Positions 43,264 to 61,197 of a stretch of 64,000 nucleotides of DNA are shown here, piece by piece. Source of the stretch: Aliihoeflea sp. 2WW (lineage in GTDB: Bacteria > Pseudomonadota > Alphaproteobacteria > Rhizobiales > Rhizobiaceae); contig NZ_AYOD01000005.1 of assembly GCF_000497755.1 (NCBI RefSeq), forward strand, positions 1 to 64,000. The letters run 5' to 3'. Position 1 is the first letter of the stretch. Every line of letters starts with the position of its first letter. A program made the position numbers and the translations under genes. The notes beneath the pieces were generated by a model. The model ran no database searches. It had not been told where the DNA came from and saw nothing but the letters and a program-made list of their open reading frames with translations.

Positions 43264-43579
43264 CGGCAGGCTCCTCCTCGGGTTCATCGTGCGGGACCGA
43301 AATCGGCCCGTCGTCGCTCACTGCGAGCGGCTCGGGGAAAGCGACGGCCTGCGAAGGGTTCGGCCCATGCGGCAGTACAATCGTCAGGCGCACCTCGCCG
43401 TCGATCCGCTCGACCGGGCCGACGATCCATTCGCAGGGGATTGTACCGGCCGGGATCGTGTCGCCATCCGCCAGCGGGTTGAAGTTGAACAGGTCGCCAT
43501 TGATGCGCAGCCGGTCGCCCGAGGTCTTTTCGAGCGTGAGGGTGTCGTTACGACGCTGAGGAGCAAATGTGATGATCAT
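43250..43579 (-). CDS. Phage structural hypothetical protein, 109 residues
   Basis: A beta-rich N-terminal part (IITFAPQRRNDTLTLEKTSG, DLFNFNPLADGDTIP) is followed by an acidic Pro-rich tail (HDEPEEEPADVDA). The start overlaps the tail-fibre stop as TGATG. No family is recognised. Its position suggests a tail-fibre accessory role. Confidence 0.65.
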   Translation of the reverse strand: MIITFAPQRRNDTLTLEKTSGDRLRINGDLFNFNPLADGDTIPAGTIPCEWIVGPVERIDGEVRLTIVLPHGPNPSQAVAFPEPLAVSDDGPISVPHDEPEEEPADVDA

Positions 43580-44490
43580 CAAAACCACCTCCCTATGGCG
43601 CCGAGACTTGCCGCGTAGCTTCCGCCGCTCAAGTCTCCGAGCCAGGTTTGAACTGTGTTCTCCAGTCGGTATGCCCACGCCTGGCCGTCGCGCGAAAGCA
43701 AGGTTCCCTGAAACGCTCTAAGCCTTGGCGAATAACCACTGCCGCCAAGCGGCGACAGACTTCCGGACGAGGTTTCGCCGGATATGAAATTGGCAATAGG
43801 GGCTGATGCGAACGTTGCCGGGTACGGCCACGAAACGATACTGCCATTTGATGCATCGACGGTGATGGATCGCATGCAAATCTGGGTTCCATCAGCAAAG
43901 CGGACATACTCGCCGTTTGCGTTCGATCCGCGTTCGATGACCGCGCCTGTGGGGACACCACCCGACTGGGAGAGACTTCCAAGGACGTTCCCGCGCCGAT
44001 AAGCCTTATCGGCCGGTAGATCGCTACGGATTTGTGCGTTCGGGATTTCTCCCAAGGTCGCATAGAATGCCGCCGCGTTTGCATCATCCAGCAGCGTACG
44101 CGCGAATGCAGTCAGGTCCGTGAGAGCCAAAGTGCCCGCGCCGCTGAAGAACGGTAGCTTGTTGGCGGCGCCGGTAAGGTCCGACAGAGCCTTCACGTTA
44201 CCGGACGAGAGCGCCGACAGCGCGGCTCGCCCGAGGCCCTCGAGGGTGACATCGTCGGGCGTGTACCAAGCCTTGTAAGCCGCCGCCGTCTGCCCCGTCC
44301 CCCGCCAGAGCTTGTCCAACGTGATAGAGGTGGCGGAGTTGACGCTTGCGATCGTCGCGCGCCGGCCGTCATCGCTCTCGATCGTGTCGCCCGGCCGCAA
44401 GAGAGACAGGTTGAAGCTTGTCCCTTGCCCGACGACGGCGGCCGAGTTCGTCGCCAGCGTGATGGTGCCTGTGTTCCAGAACGCCGGCAT
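43579..44490 (-). CDS. Phage tail fibre protein
   Basis: This is a 303-residue, Gly/Ser/Ala-rich, beta-structured protein. The N-terminal part (FWNTGTITLATNSAAVVGQG, DGRRATIASVNSATSITLDK) is the usual virion-binding domain of siphophage fibres. DLTAFARTLLDDANAAAFYA is a repeated fibre motif, and the C-terminal FADGTQICMRSITVD region resembles receptor-binding tips. It is expected at the tail end, contacting the cell surface. It overlaps the next upstream gene by one base. Confidence 0.8.
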   Translation of the reverse strand: MPAFWNTGTITLATNSAAVVGQGTSFNLSLLRPGDTIESDDGRRATIASVNSATSITLDKLWRGTGQTAAAYKAWYTPDDVTLEGLGRAALSALSSGNVKALSDLTGAANKLPFFSGAGTLALTDLTAFARTLLDDANAAAFYATLGEIPNAQIRSDLPADKAYRRGNVLGSLSQSGGVPTGAVIERGSNANGEYVRFADGTQICMRSITVDASNGSIVSWPYPATFASAPIANFISGETSSGSLSPLGGSGYSPRLRAFQGTLLSRDGQAWAYRLENTVQTWLGDLSGGSYAASLGAIGRWF

Positions 44491-44890: not shown

Positions 44891-45054
44891 GGCGCATCCT
44901 CCACCGGCAGGCAGGAAGCGATGTCGCTGTCCTGGTAGGAGACGACGAGCCCGCCATTCTCGTCGCGCAGCGTCAGCGTCTGGCCGTCATCGTCCATCGA
45001 CGCTGCCTCATAGTCGAAGAACAGGCCGTGCCTGAAAGTGACCCGGAATTTCAT
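44887..45054 (-). CDS. Small phage protein, 55 residues
   Basis: KFRVTFRHGLFFDYEAAS opens the protein, and DDDGQTLTLRDENGGLVVSY suggests a small beta-sheet domain. It overlaps both neighbours by four bases. It resembles its downstream neighbour in size and build but the similarity is too weak to call them paralogues. Function unknown. Confidence 0.6.
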   Translation of the reverse strand: MKFRVTFRHGLFFDYEAASMDDDGQTLTLRDENGGLVVSYQDSDIASCLPVEDAP

Positions 45055-45365
45055 CGCAACCTCACAACTGCCCGGATGCGCGGCGACGGGCTCGTATTGC
45101 CGCTGATCGTGTAGGTGTCGCCACTGGCCGGCTCCGGATCGACGAACATGGCGGCGATCACCGGACCGCTCGTCTGGCCGATCAGGACGTTGCCCCGTGT
45201 GCGCCGTACCTGGACGTTCGAGCCGGCGGCCCGGATGAAGATTTCGACCGGGTTCGGCGTGGCGGCATTGACGACGACGCTTGTGCCCGCGCCGCCGAAG
45301 AAGGCGGTCAGCGCACCATCCTTGATCTTGATGGTGTCGACGCTGAGCTCTTCAATCTTCGCCAT
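45051..45365 (-). CDS. Tail-module protein, tandem paralogue 1 (AKI-x-x-L-x-VDT domain)
   Basis: This 104-residue protein starts MAKIEELSVDTIKIKDGALT. The same opening recurs in the next gene and in the C-terminal domain of the one after it, so three copies lie in tandem. The rest is predicted beta sandwich (NPVEIFIRAAGSNVQVRRTR, GDTYTISGNTS). A structural role at the tail tip is likely from position. No named family is recognised. Confidence 0.7.
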   Translation of the reverse strand: MAKIEELSVDTIKIKDGALTAFFGGAGTSVVVNAATPNPVEIFIRAAGSNVQVRRTRGNVLIGQTSGPVIAAMFVDPEPASGDTYTISGNTSPSPRIRAVVRLR

Positions 45366-45367
45366 GG

Positions 45368-45781
45368 CTATTTCTTCACCGCGAGGCAATAGAGATGCGA
45401 CGAGTTCATCGTCACGCCACCCTGTCCGCCCGGCGTGCCGGGGCTATAGCTCGGCAGTTCCTCAACGCGGTACGTCTCCGATGCCGTCGCCTGATCGTCG
45501 AGGATCGATGCGTTGACCAACGCGGCGCCCCCACCCGATCCGTTGAAGCCGTAGCTCTCTTCGAACAGGATGGCGTTGTCGCGGTTGCGGCGAATGCGAT
45601 AGGTCGCGGAGCCGTTCGATCCGCTGGCAACGCCCTGATACTGGATCGTGGAGGTGCCATGGATCTCGATCGGCAGTGCGGCCGGGTTCGAGACCCCGAT
45701 CGGATTGCCGACCGACACTGTGGTGATTGCAGCCGGCACGATGTTAAGCGTGTCGACCGCCAGATTGCCGATCTTCGCCAT
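45368..45781 (-). CDS. Tail-module protein, tandem paralogue 2
   Basis: This 137-residue protein opens MAKIGNLAVDTLNIVPAAIT, then VSVGNPIGVSNPAALPIEIH, TYRIRRNRDNAILFEESYGF and ASETYRVEELP. It is a beta-rich domain matching the C-terminal part of the next upstream protein block for block. The start overlaps the upstream stop as TGATG. It is probably a virion surface or tail-tip component. Confidence 0.72.
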   Translation of the reverse strand: MAKIGNLAVDTLNIVPAAITTVSVGNPIGVSNPAALPIEIHGTSTIQYQGVASGSNGSATYRIRRNRDNAILFEESYGFNGSGGGAALVNASILDDQATASETYRVEELPSYSPGTPGGQGGVTMNSSHLYCLAVKK

Positions 45782-46758
45782 CACCGCTTCCTGTAGAGCG
45801 CTTTGATCACGACGTCCGACCACGGAATGATCGTGATGCCGAGGCCAGGGGTCGCGGCAAAGGTCTCGGTCTGCACGGTGTAGGTCTGCGAGGTGTGCAG
45901 GGCGAGGTCGACAGCCGAGAGGGGGATGTGAAGGGCCTCGGTGCCGCTGCCCGCTCTGGTGAATGTGTAGATCGCCAGGATGCGATTGCCCGTCGAAGCC
46001 CGTATGCGGATCTCGAACTGCACCGATCCGGACGAGCCGGTGTTGCGGTAGTTCGCCGTTCCAGACGCAAAGAGCTTGACCGGTGCAGCCATCGGGTTCG
46101 GCACGCCGATCGACGAGGTTCCGGTCACTACTGCCAGCGCCGCATTGTTGGCGATGTTGATCGTGTCGACTTCGAGATTGGCGATCTTCGCGGCAAAGCT
46201 TGGCCGAAAGGGCTTTGCCATCAGGATCGGCCAGCGATCGAGGACGTAGCTCGACAGTGCGCCTCGCGACAGGCAACTGTGCAGGCAAAAGCCAGCAACG
46301 ACGCCATGCTCAGCCCGCTGCTGCGCCATCATGCGCCTACCGCTGCCGACGATGTCGAGCGGGTCGAAGGTGATATGGCAGCTTAGTGAGCGCACCATCG
46401 ATCCGGGTCCAAGCTGATGAACCCGCCCGCGCTCCTCCAGGGCAACGCCGACAGTCTCGCCGTCTTCTATGCCGGCGAGGATCACCGAATAGGCCATCTC
46501 GATCGGCACCGCACCGGCCAAGAGAACGGCCGCTGCAGCGCACAGCCCAGCAAGGCTCGCGATATCAGCCTCCTCGATCCGGCGCAGGATCTCCGGTATG
46601 GCGCCGGTCGGACCCGAGAAGGCGAGGATTGCGTCGTAGCGCGGCAGATGGAATGTCTTCGCGCCGACGCGCACGATGTTGCCAGCCGGGTCATAATGCC
46701 CGCCATCGCTGAAGACATGCACCTCGTCGGCGGTCAGCAGGACGTTGACCGCGGTCAC
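45781..46758 (-). CDS. Proteasome/HslV-like Ntn-hydrolase domain fused to a tail-module domain
   Basis: This is a 325-residue protein. Residues 1-185 resemble a T1-family peptidase. After removal of Met1 the order is Thr1 (TAVNVLLTADEVHV), Asp17 in SDGGHYD and Lys33 in VGAKTFHLPRYDAILAFSGP. The Gly-Ser-Gly motif follows as DIVGSGRRMMAQQRAE near residue 138. Both the residues and their spacing match proteasome beta and HslV. Residues of about 188-325 (AKIANLEVDTINIANNAALA, GTSSIGVPNPMAAPVKLF) are the domain found as separate genes at 45051-45781. It sits between the tail-tip gene and those paralogues. Peptidase activity and target, perhaps a virion or cell-surface protein, are inferred. Confidence 0.72.
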   Translation of the reverse strand: MTAVNVLLTADEVHVFSDGGHYDPAGNIVRVGAKTFHLPRYDAILAFSGPTGAIPEILRRIEEADIASLAGLCAAAAVLLAGAVPIEMAYSVILAGIEDGETVGVALEERGRVHQLGPGSMVRSLSCHITFDPLDIVGSGRRMMAQQRAEHGVVAGFCLHSCLSRGALSSYVLDRWPILMAKPFRPSFAAKIANLEVDTINIANNAALAVVTGTSSIGVPNPMAAPVKLFASGTANYRNTGSSGSVQFEIRIRASTGNRILAIYTFTRAGSGTEALHIPLSAVDLALHTSQTYTVQTETFAATPGLGITIIPWSDVVIKALYRKR

Positions 46759-49478
46759 TGGACGATCAGCCCGTGGCGCTTGGTCGAGGTGATCGCGGCA
46801 TTGGCGATCTGGGCGTTGGTCACCTGCACATTGTCGATCTGCGCCCAGTTTGCGCGGATGCCGCCGCCGATACGGAAAACTCCACCCGAGAACGTGGCAA
46901 GCTGGGTCAGCTCGTCTCCCTGGCGAAGGTATGTCCGGTTTGAAATCAGGCCGATTTCGGAGATACCGCCCGCCTTCGCGCTCATGATGATAGCTGCCTG
47001 AGACGGCGTCGCCGCTCCTTCCGACGCAGCCACCGAAAGTGCGACGGTCGATAGGGCACCGGCATCCGTGGCGATCTGCTGGAAACGAAGAATGCCTCCG
47101 GCATAGAAGTTGCCGACCTTGGCGTCGATCGCGATCTGGGCATCGCCGATGGCGGTGATCGTCTCGCCCTGCATCGTGATCGCCGTAGACAGGAGGTTGA
47201 CGGCCGACAGGCTCGCTTTCTCACCAAGCTGAGCAGAGACTTCCTCGAAGCGCTGTGCGATGACCTGGTCCTGCGCAACGACGAGCGTCACGACGTTTTC
47301 GTACCGCGCCTCCATCCCTTGCGCGGCGGCCGTGATGACCGTGCGCAGTTCCTGCTTGTCGAGGACGTTCGCACCATCCTGCTCGAGGCCGTACATGGCG
47401 AGGCGTCGGGCTGCCTCGCGCGCCTGGCGGGCCAACTCGCCAGTAAACGCGACCGCGTGCTGGTAGCTTTCCTCGATCTCTGCGCGAAGGTCATCGGAAA
47501 AGATCACATCCAGCTCCGACAGCCGGACGTCAGGCGTGACCACCTCCAGCGGCGCGGACCAGACGGCAGTGCGTCCGCTGGTGGGGATCAGGATGCCTTG
47601 AACGACATGCGGCGTGTTCGGCGGGAAGTTTCCGTTGAGGATCACTGACCGAGGGTTCTGGTTCTCTAGCGGATCGCCATAGGGCAGATAGCCATCGAAG
47701 TTCGGCTTTGTCGCCCCTGCCACGCGCGTGACGATCCGCACCTCGCGCACGTCTTCCAGATCGCCGTCGAAGAACACTTCGATTGATGGCCTGCGCGCTC
47801 GGCCCTGCTCGTCATAGATGATCGCCGGCGCCACCTGCCACCCGGTGAGAAGCTGTGCCGGCGGGCGGTTCGGCGTGAGCGATGCGACAGACCACGACAG
47901 CTCGAACGATGTCGACCAGTCATAGTCCGACGGGTCCGCTTCCTGCAGCGCGACGTTCTGGTTGACGTTGTCGAGGTCGTCCATCGCGTTGATGGGGAAG
48001 TGCTTGACCTCATACCCGTTGCGCGCGCTCGACCATGCCACGACGTCGAGGGGCTCCAGTAGGAACGCCTCTGGCGGCAAGGTCAGCTGATGCCGGCGAA
48101 AGCGCCTGTTGTCCTCGGCGGTGGCCCGCATGAGGCGCTGAACCTGGCCGGCGAAGGGGACGGCGTTGTAGGTGACCGAGGCAAGGCGCTCCTCACCGTC
48201 GGCCGACACATGGGCTATGTTCACGTAGCGCGGCGCGTCTTTCATCTCCCAACCCGCGGCGGGCTCGGGATAGGTCGACGTTACGCCATTGAAGACGCTC
48301 TGATAGCCGGGGAACGGGTCGAAGTTCTGTGTGCTGTTGAGCACCTCGATATCGTCATCGGTGAAGAAGTACACCGGCACGCCCGGCGCACCGACATGGA
48401 TCTTGAAGGTTCCGCCGAGTTCAGCGATGCGGCCGTTGCAGCTCGTCAGCAATTCCTCGATGACGTCGGCCGGCTCCATCTCCTCGACCTTGATCTCGTA
48501 GCCGCACCGGAACTGAGGCTCCGTGCCGCCACCAGCGCGCGCGATAGGCCGATCGCACTCGTTCATGGCCGCGAACCAATTCGCTAATGGCAGCGCCAGC
48601 GCAGGCACTTCCGGGCCGTATATCCACTCCCCCTGATAATAGATGCCGCGCAGGATATTGTAGATGATCACCGCGGGGTTGTTTGAGAACTCATAGGTCG
48701 ACGCGGGCGTGCCTGCGGTGGCGGGGTTCCAGCGATGCGCGCCTGAACCGCCGACGGTCGAGTCCTTGCGCGGATCGTAAAGCGCCAGGCCGTCGACCTG
48801 CCAACGTCCGGCCGGAAACCCCTTGAACAGCTCGCGCTTGACCTCGGCCGACAGGATCACTTGCGCCAGACCGCGCCCGACCATGTCGTTCATCCATGGA
48901 CGCGCGCCGGTGCCAAGGCGCGACAGCAGTGCCGGATCGGCCGTCGTCTGGTGACCGAGCAGGTACTTGGCAAACAGGAAGTAGTAGCCGCCGCTATAGT
49001 ACTCGGTGAACGGAAAGCTGCCGGCGCCAAGCCACGCGTGCGTCGCCGGATTGATTGTCGCCGCCGGATTGCGGTTACACTCCTCGCCATTGATCCAGGC
49101 CCGATTGCCGATTGCGGTCACGGGCAGATCGGACAGCGTGAAGACCTGGATCAGACCCGCGTTCGGCGTCTTTCCCACGCGTCCATAGGTGCCGGGATAT
49201 TCGAGCTGGCCGGCCGTGGCATAGGTGCCGACGATAAACGAGAATGAGTTGTTGCCGCCGACCTGGATCTGGCCGGTGATGCCCGGGTCGACCTGCTTCT
49301 TCTGCCTCGCGCGATCGAGCAGCGATGTGCCGAGCTGCAGGGCCACGCCCAGCACCAGCTTGCCCAAAGTTGATGTCGCGAGCCAGCCGATCGCCGCGGC
49401 CACCACGCCGGCATTGGCAACGCCGGCCAATGCGAAGGTGAACCACGCGACCAGAGCCGCAAGGTTAAGAAGCTTCAT
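46755..49478 (-). CDS. Phage tail tip / host specificity protein (gpJ-like)
   Basis: This 907-residue baseplate hub/tip protein has a hydrophobic N terminus (LLNLAALVAWFTFALAG). Then follow FSFIVGTYATAGQLEYPGTY, IYNILRGIYYQGEWIYGPEV, and the tip domain VEEMEPADVIEELLTSCNGR, typical of phage tail proteins that line the hub. The last 230 residues are helical (EESYQHAVAFTGELARQAREA) and then DUF1983-like (AQIAIDAKVGNFYAGGILRF). It would close the tail tube and contact the receptor. It overlaps the Ntn-hydrolase-like gene by four bases, and a 14-base gap separates it from the peptidase-like gene. Confidence 0.85.
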   Translation of the reverse strand: MKLLNLAALVAWFTFALAGVANAGVVAAAIGWLATSTLGKLVLGVALQLGTSLLDRARQKKQVDPGITGQIQVGGNNSFSFIVGTYATAGQLEYPGTYGRVGKTPNAGLIQVFTLSDLPVTAIGNRAWINGEECNRNPAATINPATHAWLGAGSFPFTEYYSGGYYFLFAKYLLGHQTTADPALLSRLGTGARPWMNDMVGRGLAQVILSAEVKRELFKGFPAGRWQVDGLALYDPRKDSTVGGSGAHRWNPATAGTPASTYEFSNNPAVIIYNILRGIYYQGEWIYGPEVPALALPLANWFAAMNECDRPIARAGGGTEPQFRCGYEIKVEEMEPADVIEELLTSCNGRIAELGGTFKIHVGAPGVPVYFFTDDDIEVLNSTQNFDPFPGYQSVFNGVTSTYPEPAAGWEMKDAPRYVNIAHVSADGEERLASVTYNAVPFAGQVQRLMRATAEDNRRFRRHQLTLPPEAFLLEPLDVVAWSSARNGYEVKHFPINAMDDLDNVNQNVALQEADPSDYDWSTSFELSWSVASLTPNRPPAQLLTGWQVAPAIIYDEQGRARRPSIEVFFDGDLEDVREVRIVTRVAGATKPNFDGYLPYGDPLENQNPRSVILNGNFPPNTPHVVQGILIPTSGRTAVWSAPLEVVTPDVRLSELDVIFSDDLRAEIEESYQHAVAFTGELARQAREAARRLAMYGLEQDGANVLDKQELRTVITAAAQGMEARYENVVTLVVAQDQVIAQRFEEVSAQLGEKASLSAVNLLSTAITMQGETITAIGDAQIAIDAKVGNFYAGGILRFQQIATDAGALSTVALSVAASEGAATPSQAAIIMSAKAGGISEIGLISNRTYLRQGDELTQLATFSGGVFRIGGGIRANWAQIDNVQVTNAQIANAAITSTKRHGLIVQ

Positions 49479-49492
49479 CGGAGTTCCGTGGT

Positions 49493-49909
49493 TCAGATGC
49501 GAAAGGCGCGGGTGGCGCTCAGTAGGTCAACAGTGCCCATGCCTGACTGCCCCGGCCGCAGAACGAAGATGCGTTCGCCCTGGACAACCCCCAGAGCGAT
49601 CAGCGCGGCGTCATCGACGGGAACCGCTGCGAGGTCACCGACACGCGCAAGGCTCGGATGGATTTCATCGAACAGCGATGCGGCGAGGTCAGCGTGCGTG
49701 GCAAAGCCCTTGCGCTTCAAGAGGCCAAGGCCACCCCGCAGGCTCTTGTATCGGCCGCGATAGGGCTTGGCGAAGTCCTCGCCGGTCATGGCTTGAACGG
49801 CACCTGCCGCGAACATCGCACAATCATGTGTGCCCCAGGCGAAGGGACGCGCCCCGACGCTGACGATGTAGGCCGCCAGATCGGCATGCCAGGTCTCGGA
49901 CCGCGTCAT
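49493..49909 (-). CDS. Phage tail cysteine-peptidase-like protein (DUF6950 type)
   Basis: This 138-residue protein carries FAWGTHDCAMFAAGAVQAMTG, the Cys-centred N-terminal motif of NlpC/P60-like phage proteins of the DUF6950 group, and a later HPSLARVGDLAAVP with the His. In many siphophages this gene lies just before the tip protein, and its product degrades peptidoglycan during DNA entry. The start at 49909 overlaps the upstream gene by four bases. Confidence 0.75.
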   Translation of the reverse strand: MTRSETWHADLAAYIVSVGARPFAWGTHDCAMFAAGAVQAMTGEDFAKPYRGRYKSLRGGLGLLKRKGFATHADLAASLFDEIHPSLARVGDLAAVPVDDAALIALGVVQGERIFVLRPGQSGMGTVDLLSATRAFRI

Positions 49910-50535
49910 CGCTTGCCCTCTTCGCCCCAGCTGATGTTGGCAAGCCAGCCCCCGGCGACGTCTGTGTAACGGCGGACACGATCGCCCTGGCGCCGGCGCT
50001 GTTGTTCGTCCGACTTCTTCAGCGGATTGGTGAAGGTGAGCTTGCGCGCAAAGCTGACGCACGACACCTGCACCCCGCCCTCGCCATTGGCCGCCGGCGT
50101 CTCGATCGGGTTGCCATTGATCCAGCCGACAAAGCGTGGCACCGGCGGCGCGATCATCAAGCTCGTGGCCGGGTCGAGGAGCCCGCGATGGACTTCGATC
50201 GGCGCGCGACGCGTCTCATAGCCCCGCACGAGCTGCTGGACCGCCTGGCTGATCTGCGACAGCCCCACCCGGATAGTCCGGATGTTCAGGTCTGTTGTTT
50301 GCGGGATCGAATCGACGCGCAGATTGCCGCCAATGCCCTGATAGGTGCGCGTGACTGGCAGCCGTGTTCTGCCATCGATCACCGTCAGCGTCACCGTGTC
50401 GTCGAGGTTGGAAAGGCCAAGCGTCTCGATACCGCCGGTCTGGCGGTTCCAGGCCTCGACCCAAACCAGGTTTATGGGCGCCACGCCTTTGCGAGCGCGC
50501 AGGTGCGCCTCTGTTGCTGCATCGACTTGCTTCAT
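49906..50535 (-). CDS. Phage tail assembly protein (minor tail, 209 residues)
   Basis: A beta-rich protein with LVWVEAWNRQTGGIETLGLS, then TRTYQGIGGNLRVDSIPQTT and IEVHRGLLDPATSLMIAPPV. Proteins of this type lie between the distal tail protein and the NlpC-like protein in rhizobial prophages and resemble the minor tail/hub group. It overlaps both neighbours by four bases. The exact role is inferred from order. Confidence 0.72.
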   Translation of the reverse strand: MKQVDAATEAHLRARKGVAPINLVWVEAWNRQTGGIETLGLSNLDDTVTLTVIDGRTRLPVTRTYQGIGGNLRVDSIPQTTDLNIRTIRVGLSQISQAVQQLVRGYETRRAPIEVHRGLLDPATSLMIAPPVPRFVGWINGNPIETPAANGEGGVQVSCVSFARKLTFTNPLKKSDEQQRRRQGDRVRRYTDVAGGWLANISWGEEGKR

Positions 50536-51185
50536 GGCCGCTGCATCACCTGAAACGACATGCCCGCCGTGATGAGGCCTTCCGCCGTGCCGGGATCGAA
50601 CGTGTCGGGCATGATGAACACCTTGGCGGCAGGCTTGCGAAGCGCGACAGCGAGACCGGTCACGACGCCAGGCCTCAGATGGGGCCGCACTTCGAACAGC
50701 GGCGTCAGTCCGCCCGACGAGGCTTGCACGGTCTCGACAACGCGGTGGAAGGCACGGCGGACGGGATTGGCGCCATACTCGAAGGCGAGGAAATCACCAA
50801 CCGTCAGGCGGTAGCCGTTCGGCAGGCCGGTCACGCGCAGCGACTTGTTGTTCGCGCCGATCGTGTGGAGCGTTGGCATCGATACCCCCAGGTTCGACCC
50901 ATCTGGGTCATGCTGCGGATACGGAAGCTGGGGCGCATAGAGGTAGAAGCTGCGCATAGGACCATCGAGGCTTTCGACCAATGCCTGAACCTGCGCCGCG
51001 TCGGCATGGTACATCGGGCCAAGGCTCACATCACCCGTCCACTTCGGCATCGACATCTGCGCGGCCAGCACGTCTCCCGACGCCAGCCCCGAGAGTTCGT
51101 CGAACCGCTGCAGGTGCCATTTGACCGAGCGAATGCGCAGCCGATCGACGAACGTCTCGGCTGGCAGAATATCTGGCAGAGCCAT
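50532..51185 (-). CDS. Phage minor/distal tail protein (217 residues)
   Basis: The protein has WHLQRFDELSGLASGDVLAA and WTGDVSLGPMYHADAAQVQA, then GPMRSFYLYAPQLPYPQHDP, matching the class of tail proteins directly downstream of tape-measure genes. It probably forms the ring joining tail tube to hub. The start shares bases with the tape-measure stop (TGATG). Confidence 0.75.
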   Translation of the reverse strand: MALPDILPAETFVDRLRIRSVKWHLQRFDELSGLASGDVLAAQMSMPKWTGDVSLGPMYHADAAQVQALVESLDGPMRSFYLYAPQLPYPQHDPDGSNLGVSMPTLHTIGANNKSLRVTGLPNGYRLTVGDFLAFEYGANPVRRAFHRVVETVQASSGGLTPLFEVRPHLRPGVVTGLAVALRKPAAKVFIMPDTFDPGTAEGLITAGMSFQVMQRP

Positions 51186-53527
51186 CAGCCAACCATCCTC
51201 GGATCGTTCGCGATCTCGTTGACCCTGCCGGCGAGGTTGCGGTCATACTCGCCGATACCCTGCCGCACGCCGCTTTCGACCATCTGCATGATCTCCTGGT
51301 TGCCGCGCGCGCCGGAAACGTTGACGTTGATCTGGACCGGCTGATTTCCGTTTGCAGCCACTGGCTGGTTGTTGTTTGCGCTGACCGGTCGACCGGAATT
51401 GATGGCCTCGAGCAGTTGCCGGTGCTGAGCGGCCGGGCCCGCGCGGACGACGAACTCCTGACCGTGGACAAAGCCTGCAGCTGCACTGGTTGCGCCGCTA
51501 CCCGTCCAGCCGCCCGACGAGAACCCGAACATCTTGCCGAGCCCGCTGAACAAACTGCCGAACATCCCGCCGCCGCCGGAGGACGCTGCACCGCTTGCAC
51601 CACCGAACGCGTTGGCCCAAAGGCTGTTGATCGCCATTTCGATGAGCTTGTCAGCGATCTTGTTCAGCGCGCCGAGCGCCGCGTCGGCAAAGGAACGAAG
51701 CACGCCCTTGCCCTGCTCCAGCCCCGACTTGAAATCGTTGAGGAAGCCCGACGTGACCTCCTTGGCGAAGTCAAAGGCATCGCGCAGCGCAGTGGTGTTC
51801 GCTTCTGCATCGGCCATGGCGGAGGCCAAGCCTTCAAGTTCCGCCTTCTGAGCCGAAGTGAGCTTGATCCCCGCATCCTGCGCCTGGTTGAGCAGATCCT
51901 GCGTGTAGCGAAGCCGGTTGGCCTCGCGCTCGGTCATGCCGATGGCCTGCGCTTCGAGCTTCTGCGCTTCGATGTACTGCTGTGCGAAGCGCGTGATGCG
52001 CTCGTAGGACTTCGCCGCCCGTTCCGCTGCGCGCTGCGCCGCCTTGTCAACTTCGCCGGTTGGCTTGATGCCCGACCCGCTACCGCCCGGTAGCTCGACA
52101 GCGGCCCCTTCACGTGGACGCGTGCCATGGTTCCATGCCAGTTGCGCCAGATTGCCGGATGCGTCGGCAAGAGCGGTGGCAAGCTCCGCCTCGTTGCGCA
52201 GCTTGTCCACCATGCCGGACACCTGCTCAACACCGATGCCGAATGCCCGAAGGATGCCGCCGAACGAGCTTTCGAAGCCCTCGACCATATCGGCCAAGAA
52301 GGTGGCCCAGACAGACTGAATCCCGGCCACGACCGATTCAAAGCCATAGCCGAATGCCGCCGCGATGGCCTTCGACCGCTCGAACACGTCCTCGAACGCC
52401 TGACCCCAGCTATCGACGTGCTGGCGCGCTTCGATCAATTGATAGACGAGCTCGCCGAGAAGAACGACGACGGCGCCGATGCCAGTGCGGATCAGGGCGG
52501 CCCTCAAGAATGCGAGGGAGCCGGCCAGCGTCATGGTGGCGACATTGGCTGCCACGAATGCCGCGACGTAGTATGTGCCGTACATCGTGACCGCGGTTGC
52601 GGCGGTGGTGACGATACGCCCGATGTTGTCCGCGATGATGATCAGACCGGCGGCGAAAGTTTCAGACGCGCCAGCGGCTTGGTCCATCGTGCCTATGTAC
52701 TGCATTAAAGAGTTGCGGATCAGCATCACGCCATCGCCCATCGTGGCTGGCATCAGTTCGGCCTCAGCGCGAAGGCCTTCCATCCGCTTCGTCAGGGCAT
52801 TGTAGATAACGTCGCCAGTGATCTTGCCGTCGGCGCCGAACTGGCGGAGCTGATTGACGCCGATTCCAAGCTCTTCGGCCAAGACTTCGGCAACGCGGCC
52901 GCCCGTCTCGATGACGGTATTGAGCTCATCACCGCTCAGCTTACCCCCCGCCATGGCCTTGCCGAGAGCGTCCTGAACGCGCGCTGCGCGATCAGCGCGG
53001 GCGCCAGAAACGACCAGTGCGAGGTTCAGCGCCTCGGTGTAGTCCAACTGATCGGCGGTGGTCCTCCCGAGTTCGCGCAGAACCGTGGCGTTTCGAATGA
53101 AGCTTTCGGCCGTCAGGTCCAGAGCCGAGTATGTGCGCCGGGCAACGGTCGCCAGGCGATCCAGCACGACGCCGCTCGCATCCATATTGCCTACGGCCAG
53201 CCCGACACGGGCGTTGATGTCGGACCACGTATCGGCGAACTGGATCAGGGCGTTCGTGGCCAGCGCGCCAAGAACGGCACCGATCGCGCGGGCAGCCATT
53301 GCGGCGGACTTCTCCCACCCACCATAGGCTTGCGCCGCACGGCTTGCCGATGCTGCCGCATTGTCATTGGCGGCTGCAGCCATGCGCCCGGCCTTGGTCG
53401 CCTCTGTTCCGACGTTCTTGGCGGCGCGTTCTGCTGCGCCTGATGCCTGCGCGAAGCGCTGGAGAGAGGCATTGGCCTGGTCGACCTGCTCGGAGCGGAC
53501 CGCAATGCCCAGGGTAGCAATGTCCAT
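51185..53527 (-). CDS. Tail tape measure protein
   Basis: This 780-residue protein sets tail length. The N-terminal coiled region (LGIAVRSEQVDQANASLQRF) leads into the tape-measure domain near residues 85-270, with LATVARRTYSALDLTAESF and AMAGGKLSGDELNTVIETGG. Hydrophobic helices follow near residues 310-360 (VVVLLGELVYQLIEAR), then long Lys/Glu/Ala coiled coils, and a Gly-rich end. At 780 residues it predicts a tail of moderate length. It is a clear mark of a long non-contractile or contractile tail, and the absence of sheath genes favours a siphovirus. Confidence 0.92.
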   Translation of the reverse strand: MDIATLGIAVRSEQVDQANASLQRFAQASGAAERAAKNVGTEATKAGRMAAAANDNAAASASRAAQAYGGWEKSAAMAARAIGAVLGALATNALIQFADTWSDINARVGLAVGNMDASGVVLDRLATVARRTYSALDLTAESFIRNATVLRELGRTTADQLDYTEALNLALVVSGARADRAARVQDALGKAMAGGKLSGDELNTVIETGGRVAEVLAEELGIGVNQLRQFGADGKITGDVIYNALTKRMEGLRAEAELMPATMGDGVMLIRNSLMQYIGTMDQAAGASETFAAGLIIIADNIGRIVTTAATAVTMYGTYYVAAFVAANVATMTLAGSLAFLRAALIRTGIGAVVVLLGELVYQLIEARQHVDSWGQAFEDVFERSKAIAAAFGYGFESVVAGIQSVWATFLADMVEGFESSFGGILRAFGIGVEQVSGMVDKLRNEAELATALADASGNLAQLAWNHGTRPREGAAVELPGGSGSGIKPTGEVDKAAQRAAERAAKSYERITRFAQQYIEAQKLEAQAIGMTEREANRLRYTQDLLNQAQDAGIKLTSAQKAELEGLASAMADAEANTTALRDAFDFAKEVTSGFLNDFKSGLEQGKGVLRSFADAALGALNKIADKLIEMAINSLWANAFGGASGAASSGGGGMFGSLFSGLGKMFGFSSGGWTGSGATSAAAGFVHGQEFVVRAGPAAQHRQLLEAINSGRPVSANNNQPVAANGNQPVQINVNVSGARGNQEIMQMVESGVRQGIGEYDRNLAGRVNEIANDPRMVG

Positions 53528-53772: not shown

Positions 53773-54512
53773 CTAGCCAAACAGCGCATCGAACAGTTCA
53801 CCGCTGAGAGGCCGGCTCTCGACCTTCTTGCGCTCGCTCTCCGGCTTACTGGCATATTCGAGATAGGCGCCATCCATGGCCCTGATGCAGGCCCGGAAAG
53901 TCGCCGTCTCGACATCGTCCAGACCAGACTGTGCCGCCCACGAGTTGATGGCGGACGCCGGGATGGCCCCGACGCCCATGCCTATCTGGCGATCGGTGCA
54001 GAGCTCCCAAAAGGCATGAAGCCAGTCCAGGGTGCCGGGCAGCAGATCGCCTTCAAGGATCAGGTCGTCGCCGGCGAGGCTGCGCGCGACGACCGCTTTG
54101 AGCCGTTTCCCATGTCATCCGTCTCCCCGGCGCGGCCTTTGTCGACGATTTGGGCGGCCCAGACGACCGCATCGGCGAAGGCGACGTAATCGGGGTTGGT
54201 CAGCCATTCCTTCGCGAGGTTGGCGTCGAATGGCAGCGGCTGTTTGCCGTTCGTGAAGCCGTCCCAATCGAAGAGGACCGCCTCGTGCAGCACTTCGCCG
54301 AAGATGCGCATGGCAGCTTCGGGCTTGAGCGATCCGTCACGCTCCCGATCTTCCCGCGTGACCTTGCGCTCCTTGCGCGAGCGCAGCGCAACGACGGTTG
54401 GGCTGGAGAGGCCGCGGACACGCAAACGAACGTCCCCCATGCCAGGGATGTCGCTCACCCAATCGCCGGCTTCGACCTTGGAACTGTCACGCTTGAGAGA
54501 TGCGATATCCAT
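53773..54512 (-). CDS. Tail assembly chaperone, long form (gpGT-like) made by minus-one frameshift
   Basis: The product is predicted at about 246 residues. Translation starts at 54512, slips at GGGAAAC (54111-54105) and continues in the minus-one frame without a stop to 53773. The added part begins RLKAVVARSLAGDDLILEGD and ends with a helical domain (CIRAMDGAYLEYASKPESER). The 42 codons between the slip site and the first ATG of the T frame are open, and that region has no good start of its own. In lambda the equivalent gpGT links the tape measure to tail tube subunits. The frameshift is inferred from sequence. Confidence 0.75.
54060..54512 (-). CDS. Tail assembly chaperone, short form (gpG-like)
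   Basis: This is the zero-frame product of 150 residues. It starts MDIASLKRDSSKVEAGDWVS and has PGMGDVRLRVRGLSSPTVVA and an Asp/Lys-rich centre (LRSRKERKVTREDRERDGS). It ends shortly after the slip site with GNGSKRSSRAASPATT. Proteins of this pattern lie between tail tube and tape measure and chaperone tail assembly. The start overlaps the tail tube stop (TAATG). Confidence 0.8.
   Translation of the reverse strand: MDIASLKRDSSKVEAGDWVSDIPGMGDVRLRVRGLSSPTVVALRSRKERKVTREDRERDGSLKPEAAMRIFGEVLHEAVLFDWDGFTNGKQPLPFDANLAKEWLTNPDYVAFADAVVWAAQIVDKGRAGETDDMGNGSKRSSRAASPATT
54105..54111 (-). promoter_or_regulatory. Slippery heptamer for minus-one frameshift (GGGAAAC)
   Basis: On the minus strand the zero-frame codons are GGA AAC preceded by G, the X-XXY-YYZ form needed for tandem slippage onto GGG AAA. 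Lambda uses GGGAAAG at the equivalent place. The zero frame ends 14 codons later. Confidence 0.75.
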
Positions 54513-55039
54513 TATTCTGCAACTCCGATCGGGCCACCGGTTGCTGATGCCGCAACCTTGACCGTGTTGCGGAACTTGACCAACTCGCACGTCATCGCCT
54601 GCATGGTGTTCGCCTCCCCGCCTTGCTCATTGGGCTGCTTGACGTAGGCCGCGAAGAGCCGAAGGCTCCCGTGGGGCGATGCACCCACAGGAGCGTCGGG
54701 CAGCTCAACAATGAACGAGCGCAGTCGCCTGTCGCCAGCGGCCGCGTAAAGCGCTATCTGACCGGGATCAGCATCCAACACCCCGAACGTGTTCTGCATC
54801 ACGCCGGGGTTCTTGGTGCCCATCTGGACGTCGTCGTAGTCCTCGTTGATGTACGCCTGCGTGATCGTGGCCTGGTCGCCGCCGAGTGCGCCCATCGTTT
54901 GCCACTTTCCGATACGGATGAAACCACTGTCGCCGATCTCGGGGAAATCGTCGATGGTAAGGAGCCGACCTGTCGTGGGCGGCACAAAGACACCGCCGAT
55001 GAACAGGTTTGCGCCCGCGACGGGGAATGACTGGGCCAT
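54512..55039 (-). CDS. Major tail tube protein
   Basis: This is a 175-residue protein. SFPVAGANLFIGGVFVPPTT opens it, followed by LTIDDFPEIGDSGFIRIGKW and ATITQAYINEDYDDVQMGTK, a pattern of lambda gpV-type tube subunits. LRLFAAYVKQPNEQGGEANT is a late conserved strand. Hexameric rings of it would form the tail tube. The start at 55039 follows CACAGGAGGCCGAC, a strong site that suits high expression. A structured, gene-free 180-base leader precedes it. Confidence 0.85.
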   Translation of the reverse strand: MAQSFPVAGANLFIGGVFVPPTTGRLLTIDDFPEIGDSGFIRIGKWQTMGALGGDQATITQAYINEDYDDVQMGTKNPGVMQNTFGVLDADPGQIALYAAAGDRRLRSFIVELPDAPVGASPHGSLRLFAAYVKQPNEQGGEANTMQAMTCELVKFRNTVKVAASATGGPIGVAE

Positions 55040-55221
55040 GTCGGCCTCCTGTGCTGATGATGCCCTTGCCGAAGGAGCCTGAACGGCGTAAATTTGCGCC
55101 ACGGTGCGCTGCTGCCTCTGAGGCGTAAAGGACGGCAAACAAATCTCAGGTGGAAACCTTCAGAGACAATTTCCTGATGGAAACCGAATAGCGGGTTCGA
55201 ACCCCGCCGGCGCGCTGCTCT
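55040..55221 (-). other. Structured leader upstream of the tail tube gene
   Basis: This 182-base stretch has no gene. It holds a perfect T-arm-like stem (GCGGG-TTCGAAC-CCCGC, 55191-55207, read on the plus strand), a TTTCC/GGAAA hairpin (55170-55183), a GCCTC/GAGGC hairpin (55114-55124) and two GGTTTCCA copies on the minus strand. It probably regulates or processes the tail tube mRNA, or carries a separate promoter. Confidence 0.45.
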
Positions 55222-60192: not shown

Positions 60193-61197
60193 TCAGCCGT
60201 TCGTCGTGACGGCGACCATGCGGACGAGCTTGGGATCATAGACCCGCGTCCAATTCGTGCCGGTGCCGAGTTCGGTATCGGTGACGCCGGATGCCGATGC
60301 TGGGTTGCCGGTAAACGACACGCCACGCGGGTGCATGACCCAGTGGCGGCGGTACCAGACCGTCTCCACGCCTTCACCGTTACCGGCTTCGGCGACCGAA
60401 GAGAGTTCGACAGGCTTCTTCGGCCCGCCCTCGCCGGTAGCCTCGGCATAGCCGATGGCGCCATTGCCGAAGAGGTAAGACGTGTATTTGAAGCCACTGT
60501 CGTCGCCCGGCTCGCGCGGGCACTGGTCCGACACGTAGACGATCTTGTCGTCCCACATGTTGAAGTCGAGCCCCGTAGCCGGGTCCTTGAACTTCTCGAT
60601 CGCCCGGGCCGCCCGCAGGTTGTAGAAGATGCGGCTGTGCATGAGCACCGCAGAGAGCGTTGTGCCATACTCACCGAGCAGCGCGTAGGCGTTGGCGGCA
60701 ATCTCGGCATCGAGGTTGATCGGCGTTACGGCGCCATCCTCGGATGCGACGTCGAGCACATTGCCGGCCATGCCCGCCGAGGCAAACACGCCGCGCATCT
60801 GCTCGCCCATGATGCGCTGCTCTTCACGCACCCAGTATTCGGCGATGAGCGTGGCGACCGCATCGAGCGGGTCTTCCGCCAGCATCGAGGCGACGAGGTT
60901 CGCTGACTGCCAGCCGTTGTTGCGCCGGATCTTGCGAGCCATGTCCTGGCCCTGCGTCAGCTTGTTCGGCGTGGCGTTCTGCGCCGGGTCGTCCGTCGAG
61001 ACGTTGGAGTTGCCGGTCAGGTCGTTCCAGAACGGCATCTGGACGAGATCGCCGGGACCGTTCGCAAAGCGCTGCAGTTCGGCGTCGGTCGACACGATTG
61101 GCGAGTTGCGGATGCGCGAAAGCTGCGCAATGCGCTGGATCGTCGTGGGGAGGAAGAGCGGGCCATAGATGACGTCGCTCAGACGGGTCGTTGCCAT
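60193..61197 (-). CDS. Major capsid protein
   Basis: This is a 334-residue HK97-fold coat protein. TRLSDVIYGPLFLPTTIQRI opens it. FANGPGDLVQMPFWNDLTGN, QGQDMARKIRRNNGWQSANL, SAVLMHSRIFYNLRAARAIE and the late RRHWVMHPRGVSFTGNPASA match coat proteins of this phage group. Its length, place between scaffold and connectors, and Gly/Asp-rich loops support the call. The start follows CAGGAGCCTCAA. Confidence 0.88.
   Translation of the reverse strand: MATTRLSDVIYGPLFLPTTIQRIAQLSRIRNSPIVSTDAELQRFANGPGDLVQMPFWNDLTGNSNVSTDDPAQNATPNKLTQGQDMARKIRRNNGWQSANLVASMLAEDPLDAVATLIAEYWVREEQRIMGEQMRGVFASAGMAGNVLDVASEDGAVTPINLDAEIAANAYALLGEYGTTLSAVLMHSRIFYNLRAARAIEKFKDPATGLDFNMWDDKIVYVSDQCPREPGDDSGFKYTSYLFGNGAIGYAEATGEGGPKKPVELSSVAEAGNGEGVETVWYRRHWVMHPRGVSFTGNPASASGVTDTELGTGTNWTRVYDPKLVRMVAVTTNG

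Follow-up and report, generated by a model that had tools for sequence, protein, structure and literature searches.

A prophage tail module of Aliihoeflea sp. 2WW carries a gene whose product resembles the peptidases of the proteasome, and we asked whether this resemblance is real and what an enzyme of this type might do in a phage tail. The window that we analysed is the whole stretch of positions 1 to 64,000 of contig NZ_AYOD01000005.1 (64,000 nucleotides).

A prophage tail gene with a predicted proteasome-like domain

The initial annotation had placed the gene at 45781-46758, which proved correct, and had left out the strand, which is minus. It had also assigned the gene to a phage tail module, and genes for J, the tape measure and the distal and major tail proteins were indeed found around it (Table 1). 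The window prophage is full-size, with genes for TerL, scaffold, major head protein and head-tail adaptor, and then from the major tail protein to the fibre. Four genes, J included, separate the tape-measure gene from the Ntn-hydrolase (Ntn) gene, whose start overlaps the stop of the J-like gene by 4 bp (GTGA). The DUF6950 protein of this tail module is presumably NlpC-like. As had been read from the letters alone, the C-terminal domain of the gene product recurs in the next two genes, the copies in the window being 31 and 32% identical to one another. The host itself encodes HslV and a second PF00227 protein (G000:C35:347409-347921 and G000:C1:303411-303956, G000 being the Aliihoeflea genome), the second gene being taken for Anbu, so the prophage gene is no substitute for a missing host proteasome homologue.

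Table 1. Features of the window, the small element of the same genome, and genes beside the Ntn gene in the related loci
Feature	Position or locus	Strand	Remarks
Ntn-hydrolase/jelly-roll fusion gene	45781..46758	(-)	325 aa, GTG start, stop included
Proteasome-like Ntn-hydrolase domain (predicted)	46210..46758	(-)	residues 1-183; AlphaFold2 and 20S proteasome/Anbu matches
Thr2 codon (Thr1 without Met), predicted nucleophile	46753..46755	(-)	Ser/Thr in 27/27 members
Asp18 codon (Asp17, proteasome numbering)	46705..46707	(-)	27/27 members
Lys34 codon (Lys33)	46657..46659	(-)	27/27 members
Gly49 codon, likely equivalent of oxyanion-hole Gly47	46612..46614	(-)	27/27 members
C-terminal domain, copy 1 of the repeated domain	45784..46206	(-)	alignment
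Second copy of the C-terminal domain, alone; TNF/C1q-like jelly roll (predicted)	45368..45781	(-)	137 aa
Third, shorter copy of the C-terminal domain	45051..45365	(-)	alignment
Tail fibre	43579..44490	(-)	phrog_2712
Central tail fibre/tip protein, J-like	46755..49478	(-)	907 aa; PF13550, phrog_5616, phrog_31
DUF6950 tail-module protein	49493..50062	(-)	PF22262
Distal tail protein	50532..51185	(-)	phrog_1302
Tape measure protein	51185..53527	(-)	780 aa; PF20155, phrog_339
Major tail protein	54512..55138	(-)	phrog_158
Major head protein, same full-size prophage	60193..61197	(-)	phrog_247
TerL	C5:64976-66541		just outside the window
Own-genome element (L070, L089)	G000:C35:290296-301340		about 11.0 kb, att-like repeats at both ends
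Loci with integrase, head and Ntn genes	L070, L071, L032, L034, L026, L036, L087		
Tape measure neighbour	L070 (own genome), L075, L076, L085, L087, L037		4-bp overlap
Tape measure neighbour	L036, L073/L022		
Tape measure neighbour	L074		one small ORF between
Tape measure neighbour	L032, L088		L032 convergent; L088 downstream
gpI-like neighbour	L034, L072		L034 4-bp overlap; L072 downstream
gpI-like/J-N-terminus-like neighbour	L026, L071		
J neighbour	window, L013		4-bp overlaps
Fibre next	L073/L017		tape measure two genes away
Ntn remnant between	L033		tape measure 1.6 kb away
TerL, then two Ntn genes	L038		
MCP and TerL at a distance	L025		
681-aa gene of no assigned kind next	L028		4-bp overlap

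Sequence searches with the window protein gave no match in Pfam or PHROGs up to E 1 and none in PADLOC, and the N-terminal domain together with two relatives gave no Pfam match up to E 10, the PF00227 cut-off not being reached. An enoyl-CoA hydratase assignment from NCBIfam (E 0.045, 13 bits against a cut-off of 330) was rejected, as were two PDB chains that were not meaningful, an integrin at E 1.1 and, with a 13-row profile, a light-harvesting chain at 0.15. When aligned by hhalign with 20 HslV rows, T2 fell on T1 and K34 on K33 in register, at a probability of about 1% and an E-value of 0.05-0.06, which is not significant; alignment with Anbu-like rows gave an E-value of about 0.3 and was out of register. 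Because the HslV profile match is not significant, the filing in the proteasome-like family rests on fold and active site and not on a sequence score.

The fold was taken from an AlphaFold2 model of the window protein built from 13 sequences, in which the ten-residue blocks of residues 1-180 had pLDDT values of 81-95, with one block excepted (69), and the part past residue 180 had values of 39-66. Foldseek against the PDB returned proteasome subunits or Anbu in all of the best 50 rows, with a best E-value of 2e-7. Among the chains taken from the Foldseek ranking, 985 of 989 reached Z >= 8 in VIA-align, and the best chain aligned 173 residues over model residues 1-179 with Z 18.8 and rmsd 2.5. 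In many of these rows the first aligned model residue was residue 2, placed on chain residue 1, the number that the catalytic Thr usually has in mature beta subunits. The model consists of S1-S2, further strands, H1 (53-64), H2 (69-80), four strands, H3 (136-151) and two strands; it holds, as a prediction, the beta-sheet core S1-S11 of the proteasome-like family, and no helix H4 was found between H3 and the next strand (157-164). Against a viral fold library the full protein gave a mixture of tail-fibre and phage proteasome-like matches, with E 4e-5 at best. The Ntn fold of the T1-peptidase/proteasome type, as proposed in the initial annotation, is thus borne out by prediction, the model being related to known Ntn hydrolases.

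Another proposed signature, Gly-Ser-Gly at 138-140, did not hold up, as Ser occurs there in 4 of the 27 family members described below and the Gly after it in 20. Since this motif is not conserved and H4 is missing, the idea that the window protein forms a self-compartmentalising ring is weak; the model without H4 argues against stacked rings, short of proving their absence.

The active site is retained in a rare and divergent family

We collected 27 family members, the window protein included, from viral contigs, a Hoeflea MAG, Devosia, two Aureimonas, three Methylobacterium, Enterovirga and further genomes; two of them share 97% identity and one is a fragment. At a median pairwise identity of 24%, D18, K34 and G49 are invariant in all 27, and residue 2, which stands right after the start codon in every member, is Ser in 14 and Thr in 13. 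Thr1, Asp17 and Lys33 lie where they had been claimed once Met is removed and are kept as S/T, D and K in 27/27, and Gly48 in this numbering corresponds to the oxyanion Gly47. A loss of Thr2, Asp18 and Lys34 across homologues was not seen, with Ser replacing Thr in half of the family. As a rough control, S/T occurs at residue 2 in 10 of 40 neighbouring reference proteins, a set that uses longest-ORF starts and contains one gene twice. In nine loci the start of the Ntn gene is secure, because the upstream tail gene overlaps it by 4 bp. With Ser or Thr at residue 2 and invariant Asp18, Lys34 and Gly49, the window protein therefore looks catalytic, and we regard a proteasome-like fold with an intact active site as nearly certain. 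The same conservation bears on the alternative that the Ntn fold has a purely structural, non-enzymatic function at the tail tip, which would suit the structural gene neighbourhood and the jelly-roll fusion; however, no member has lost the nucleophile class, the Asp, the Lys or the oxyanion Gly despite the low identity, and such a function is very improbable.

The family is rare. A single-sequence query of 199 genomes from the same taxonomic family left two with matches after four false ones had been dropped. In the samples from the order, the class and the phylum, matches occurred in 7 of 297, 6 of 385 and 7 of 398 genomes, respectively, the last count including one genome (G307) with short pieces only; these samples overlap. 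The genes at L007-L010 were read as enoyl-CoA hydratases and dropped, which leaves real matches in only two of six genomes of the taxonomic family, the Aliihoeflea genome and G139. The short pieces of G307 and a truncated frame (L101) were left uncounted. The Ntn family was absent from the 50,697 phage records searched, and weak Gordonia phage matches, which lay under WhiB/helicase genes, were dropped. Among the relatives, L006 has a match to phrog_13702 (E 4e-4). This entry of 218 positions is labelled terminase large subunit and matches Ntn members from the first residue; it is probably mislabelled, because an Ntn gene can follow TerL.

Another class supplied three intact relatives (L098-L100, two genomes), which stand outside both the 27 members and the 22 loci considered below. 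They have 204 aa, begin M-S-I-L-N-V and carry D17, K33 and G48, and the reference set used found no tail neighbours for them. As they keep the Ser, Asp, Lys and Gly without detected tail neighbours, the family appears wider than tails. Nearby ORFs of 498 and 389 aa are common to L099 and L100. Multiple copies also occur: two Ntn genes stand in a row at L038:5032-6852, one genome (G232) has three copies (L073:7388-12437, L088:7988-8665), and an Ntn remnant lies beside an intact copy at L033:5399-5581. These tandem and multi-copy genes look as if specificity were under turnover.

Most relatives adjoin a tail-initiator gene

Readable context was available for 22 loci from the 27 members. L035 (97% identical to L016), L027 and L086 (contig edge) and L039 (truncated) were left out of the locus count, the two Ntn genes of L038 were counted as one locus, and the gene calls behind the tally are simple longest-ORF calls. 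We found that a tail-initiator gene adjoins the Ntn gene in 17 of the 22 loci, being a tape-measure gene in 11, a gpI-like or J-N-terminus-like gene in four and a J gene in two, and that the two genes overlap by 4 bp in nine loci, the window included. The five other loci have no adjacent tape-measure, gpI-like or J gene.

PHROGs assigned nine of ten long neighbours tested to tape measures, eight of them among the 11 and the ninth at L033, and the tape-measure assignment at L085, L087 and L088 came from phmmer matches to other tape measures. Pfam Lambda_tail_I was above its cut-off in three of the five gpI-like genes tested (L034, L072 and L035), after which a reading of the gpI-like gene as a J fragment was dropped. 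At L026 and L071 the Pfam Lambda_tail_I cut-off was not reached and no match to the Lambda_tail_I group was found; both neighbours resemble one another as well as residues 46-162 of the L013 J protein, and we infer from their sequences that they are gpI-like. At these two loci (L026:5520-6206, L071:8315-9082) the gpI-like frame overlaps the Ntn frame by about 200-290 bp in a different frame, which may reflect a true overlap of the genes or a stop that comes late. The 681-aa overlap partner at L028 (L028:3959-6768) shows weak similarity to phage proteins of very large size, virion RNA polymerase among them, and the long ORF after it resembles a tail fibre (putative). This pairing is perhaps an ejection-protein counterpart of the tape-measure pairing.

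A rough binomial tail for 17 of 22, with guessed chances and related loci, is 4e-4 at a chance of 0.4 and 1e-8 at 0.2. These counts bear on whether the gene merely rides in late operons as a late-expressed accessory enzyme aimed at a host protein. Such an enzyme would fit L038 and L025, which are near TerL with no tape-measure or gpI gene seen, and the other-class relatives in surroundings without detected phage genes; PPH and AAH are known phage-carried proteasome homologues (PMC8665760), and RXM g89 lies in a replication region. Nevertheless, the share of loci in which the Ntn gene adjoins a tape-measure, gpI-like or J gene (17 of 22, nine with a 4-bp overlap) exceeds by a rough estimate what riding would lead us to expect, and we consider this alternative quite improbable. 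A role of the Ntn enzyme in tail assembly is, in our judgement, likely.

Several relatives lie in small elements that look like capsid-encoding satellites

An integrase, a major head protein and an Ntn gene were read within 11-19 kb in seven of the 22 loci. The element in the Aliihoeflea genome itself is bounded by a 17-bp repeat whose two copies, at C35:290296 and 301324, are identical; the right one lies at the 3' end of a tRNA-Leu(cag) gene, and the second-longest repeat shared by the compared stretches has 15 bp. Its genes encode an integrase, a replication protein, an HNH protein, a head protease, a major head protein, a tape measure and the Ntn protein, and among ten of its ORFs compared with PHROGs there was no TerL, portal or second tail gene. 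The genes of L087 are those for a portal piece, protease/MCP, adaptor, TerS, TerL, Ntn, tape measure and integrase, and both L034 and L026 have head genes, TerS, TerL, a gpI-like gene, Ntn and integrase; each of these three loci has one tail gene, together with Ntn. A cf-PICI-like satellite has an integrase, its own capsid and packaging genes, and lacks a full tail set. By gene content, the seven small elements look like capsid-encoding satellites, with the 11.0-kb element as a candidate in the host of the window phage; alternatively, they may be decayed prophages.

The window tape measure was matched by 8 of 12 other tape measures at E <= 1e-3, with 25-52% identity over 107-416 aa (38% over 416 aa for L070 and 52% over 225 aa for L076), and this similarity would make a phage like that of the window a plausible helper for some of the elements. 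Putative tmp genes were described in PLE-like elements and cf-PICIs in 2026, PLE11 is reported to give rise to chimeric tails, and PLE11 Rta blocks ICP1 tails via its tape measure (PMC12987554). The Ntn enzyme could be a competition factor that cuts or blocks the tail proteins of a helper or rival phage, the element's own tape measure or gpI being resistant, with Rta as the precedent (PMC12987554). The pairing with element-encoded tape-measure or gpI-like genes and the strong divergence around a fixed active site, with multiple copies (L038, L073 and the L033 remnant), are consistent with such a factor. It is also found, however, in full-size phages that own their tail genes (the window and L013), and we hold this alternative to be improbable.

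The C-terminal jelly roll and a possible role at the tail tip

The stand-alone copy of the C-terminal domain gave a jelly-roll model with a pLDDT of 82.6. The nearest structures were BxpB (Z 9.9) and TNF (up to 9.7), the TNF-like lectins PLTL and BC2L-C matched at Z 9.0-9.4, and the nearest viral models were collagen-like, C1q and tail-fibre proteins. Fusion of the Ntn domain to a jelly roll was present in the window and L013 only, the latter a second phage contig with the Ntn gene and two similar repeats in the same order as in the window. The jelly-roll domain likely has a role in tip or fibre attachment or in binding.

This architecture raises the alternative of a virion-borne tail-tip hydrolase, held by the jelly roll, that would act on the host envelope at entry, whether on a surface protein, a peptide or an acyl amide. 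The Ntn gene stands right after J and before the tail fibre, and the TNF/C1q-like jelly roll to which it is fused, in L013 likewise, resembles trimeric lectins, all of which would suit an entry enzyme. The other intact members have 204-283 aa, however, and are too short for such a fusion, and most of these shorter members are paired with a tape-measure or gpI-like gene. The lambda tape measure and gpI act in the assembling tail. As the relatives lie mostly by tape-measure or gpI-like genes, several of them in small elements, tail assembly is favoured over the cutting of host surface proteins, and we rate an entry enzyme as unlikely.

A proposed role in tail maturation

The reading that we prefer is that the N-terminal domain would be a competent proteasome-like Ntn hydrolase with Thr1 (Ser1 in half of the family) as its nucleophile, needing no activation beyond loss of the start Met and having no propeptide. 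Its target would be the tail-initiator complex of J, gpI and tape measure, one of whose proteins it would cut at one or a few specific sites, or modify by acyl transfer, presumably during tail assembly. In the window phage, the jelly-roll domain, which is of a kind often trimeric, would carry the enzyme to the tail tip, where it would stay in the virion; in the small capsid-encoding elements the enzyme would be paired with the element's own tape-measure or gpI-like gene.

Invariant catalytic residues, drifting surfaces and the recurrent pairing with tape-measure, gpI-like or J genes together point to an enzyme with a specific tail-initiator partner, and since the tape measure is cleaved in lambda and T5, this pairing favours a tail-maturation cut or acyl transfer. 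We know of no protease assigned to the lambda tape measure. We thus favour tail maturation first, then an entry enzyme at the tip and then a competition factor. Taken as a whole, the best explanation, a Ser/Thr amidohydrolase acting on the tail-tip/tape-measure complex and perhaps a tail-maturation protease, is put forward tentatively, with a little less than an even chance of being right, and specific cleavage of a tail protein is a possibility that we would back to the same degree. Several results weigh against it: the phage records searched gave no match, the HslV profile comparison is not significant, five of the 22 loci have no adjacent tail-initiator gene, two of the four gpI-like assignments (L026 and L071) lack Pfam support, the relatives from another class show no tail neighbours by the reference set used, four genes separate the tape-measure and Ntn genes in the window, and host involvement in the cleavage has been reported for T5. 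More doubtful is the wider proposal that phages process the initiator complex with a proteasome-fold enzyme and that capsid-encoding satellites of Alphaproteobacteria combine it with a tape measure or gpI of their own, the pair forming a two-gene cassette from which chimeric tails would be built on helper phages.

Comparison with known systems

The proteasome-like family includes the 20S proteasome, HslV, Anbu, BPH and connectase, together with 22 families (Fuchs, Alva and Lupas 2021, PMC8665760). The window domain shares with it Ser/Thr1, Asp17, Lys33, Gly47 and the sheet core, and like the members outside 20S beta and HslV it has no propeptide. It differs in having no significant sequence link to the family (by Pfam and hhalign) and no H4 in the model, and in that its own family is coupled to tail-initiator genes. 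Two phage families, PPH and AAH, belong to the proteasome-like family, and the authors of the study came upon no genomic context hinting at a function of phage proteasome homologues (PMC8665760). PPH and the window protein are both phage-carried proteasome homologues; whereas PPH has about 140 aa and is without H2, the window domain has about 183 aa and, in the model, has H2 and is missing H4. H2 is absent from RPC as well. RXM g89, likely an example of PPH, adjoins a DNA primase/polymerase in a replication region and, unlike the window gene, is not in a tail operon. FC4, listed for Firmicutes only, has a proteasome-like domain and a C-terminal domain that has been likened to phage tail proteins (PMC8665760), a likeness to the proteasome-like and tail-like domains of the window protein that is by description only. 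The window family differs from PPH and RPC by the features stated, and it may coincide with DPH, GPH, FC4 or another of the named families.

In both T5 and lambda, the tape measure undergoes cleavage while the tail is being assembled (PMC10038345, PMC3224144), and host involvement in T5 tail-protein cleavage is reported in the title of a paper cited in the T5 literature. The cleavage of lambda gpH and T5 pb2 is a proteolytic step on a protein encoded beside many Ntn relatives. In the excerpts searched, the literature on this cleavage names no phage protease of the Ntn kind, and those of two reviews name no tape-measure protease (PMC3185693, PMC8718954). No tail-coupled Ntn hydrolase was recognised in searches of the open-licence PMC literature, and the Ntn family is a concrete candidate for a proteolytic step on phage tail proteins.

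PLEs and cf-PICIs (PMC12987554) are small elements with their own tape measure, as are those described here. The excerpts of that paper mention no Ntn hydrolase in them, whereas the present elements add one, and in these a gpI-like gene can replace the tape measure. This suggests that satellite-like elements may reshape tails by means of an enzyme besides their own tape measure. Phage proteasome homologues were known before, as PPH and AAH; what is new in the family described here is a sharp genomic context, namely its pairing with tail-initiator genes.
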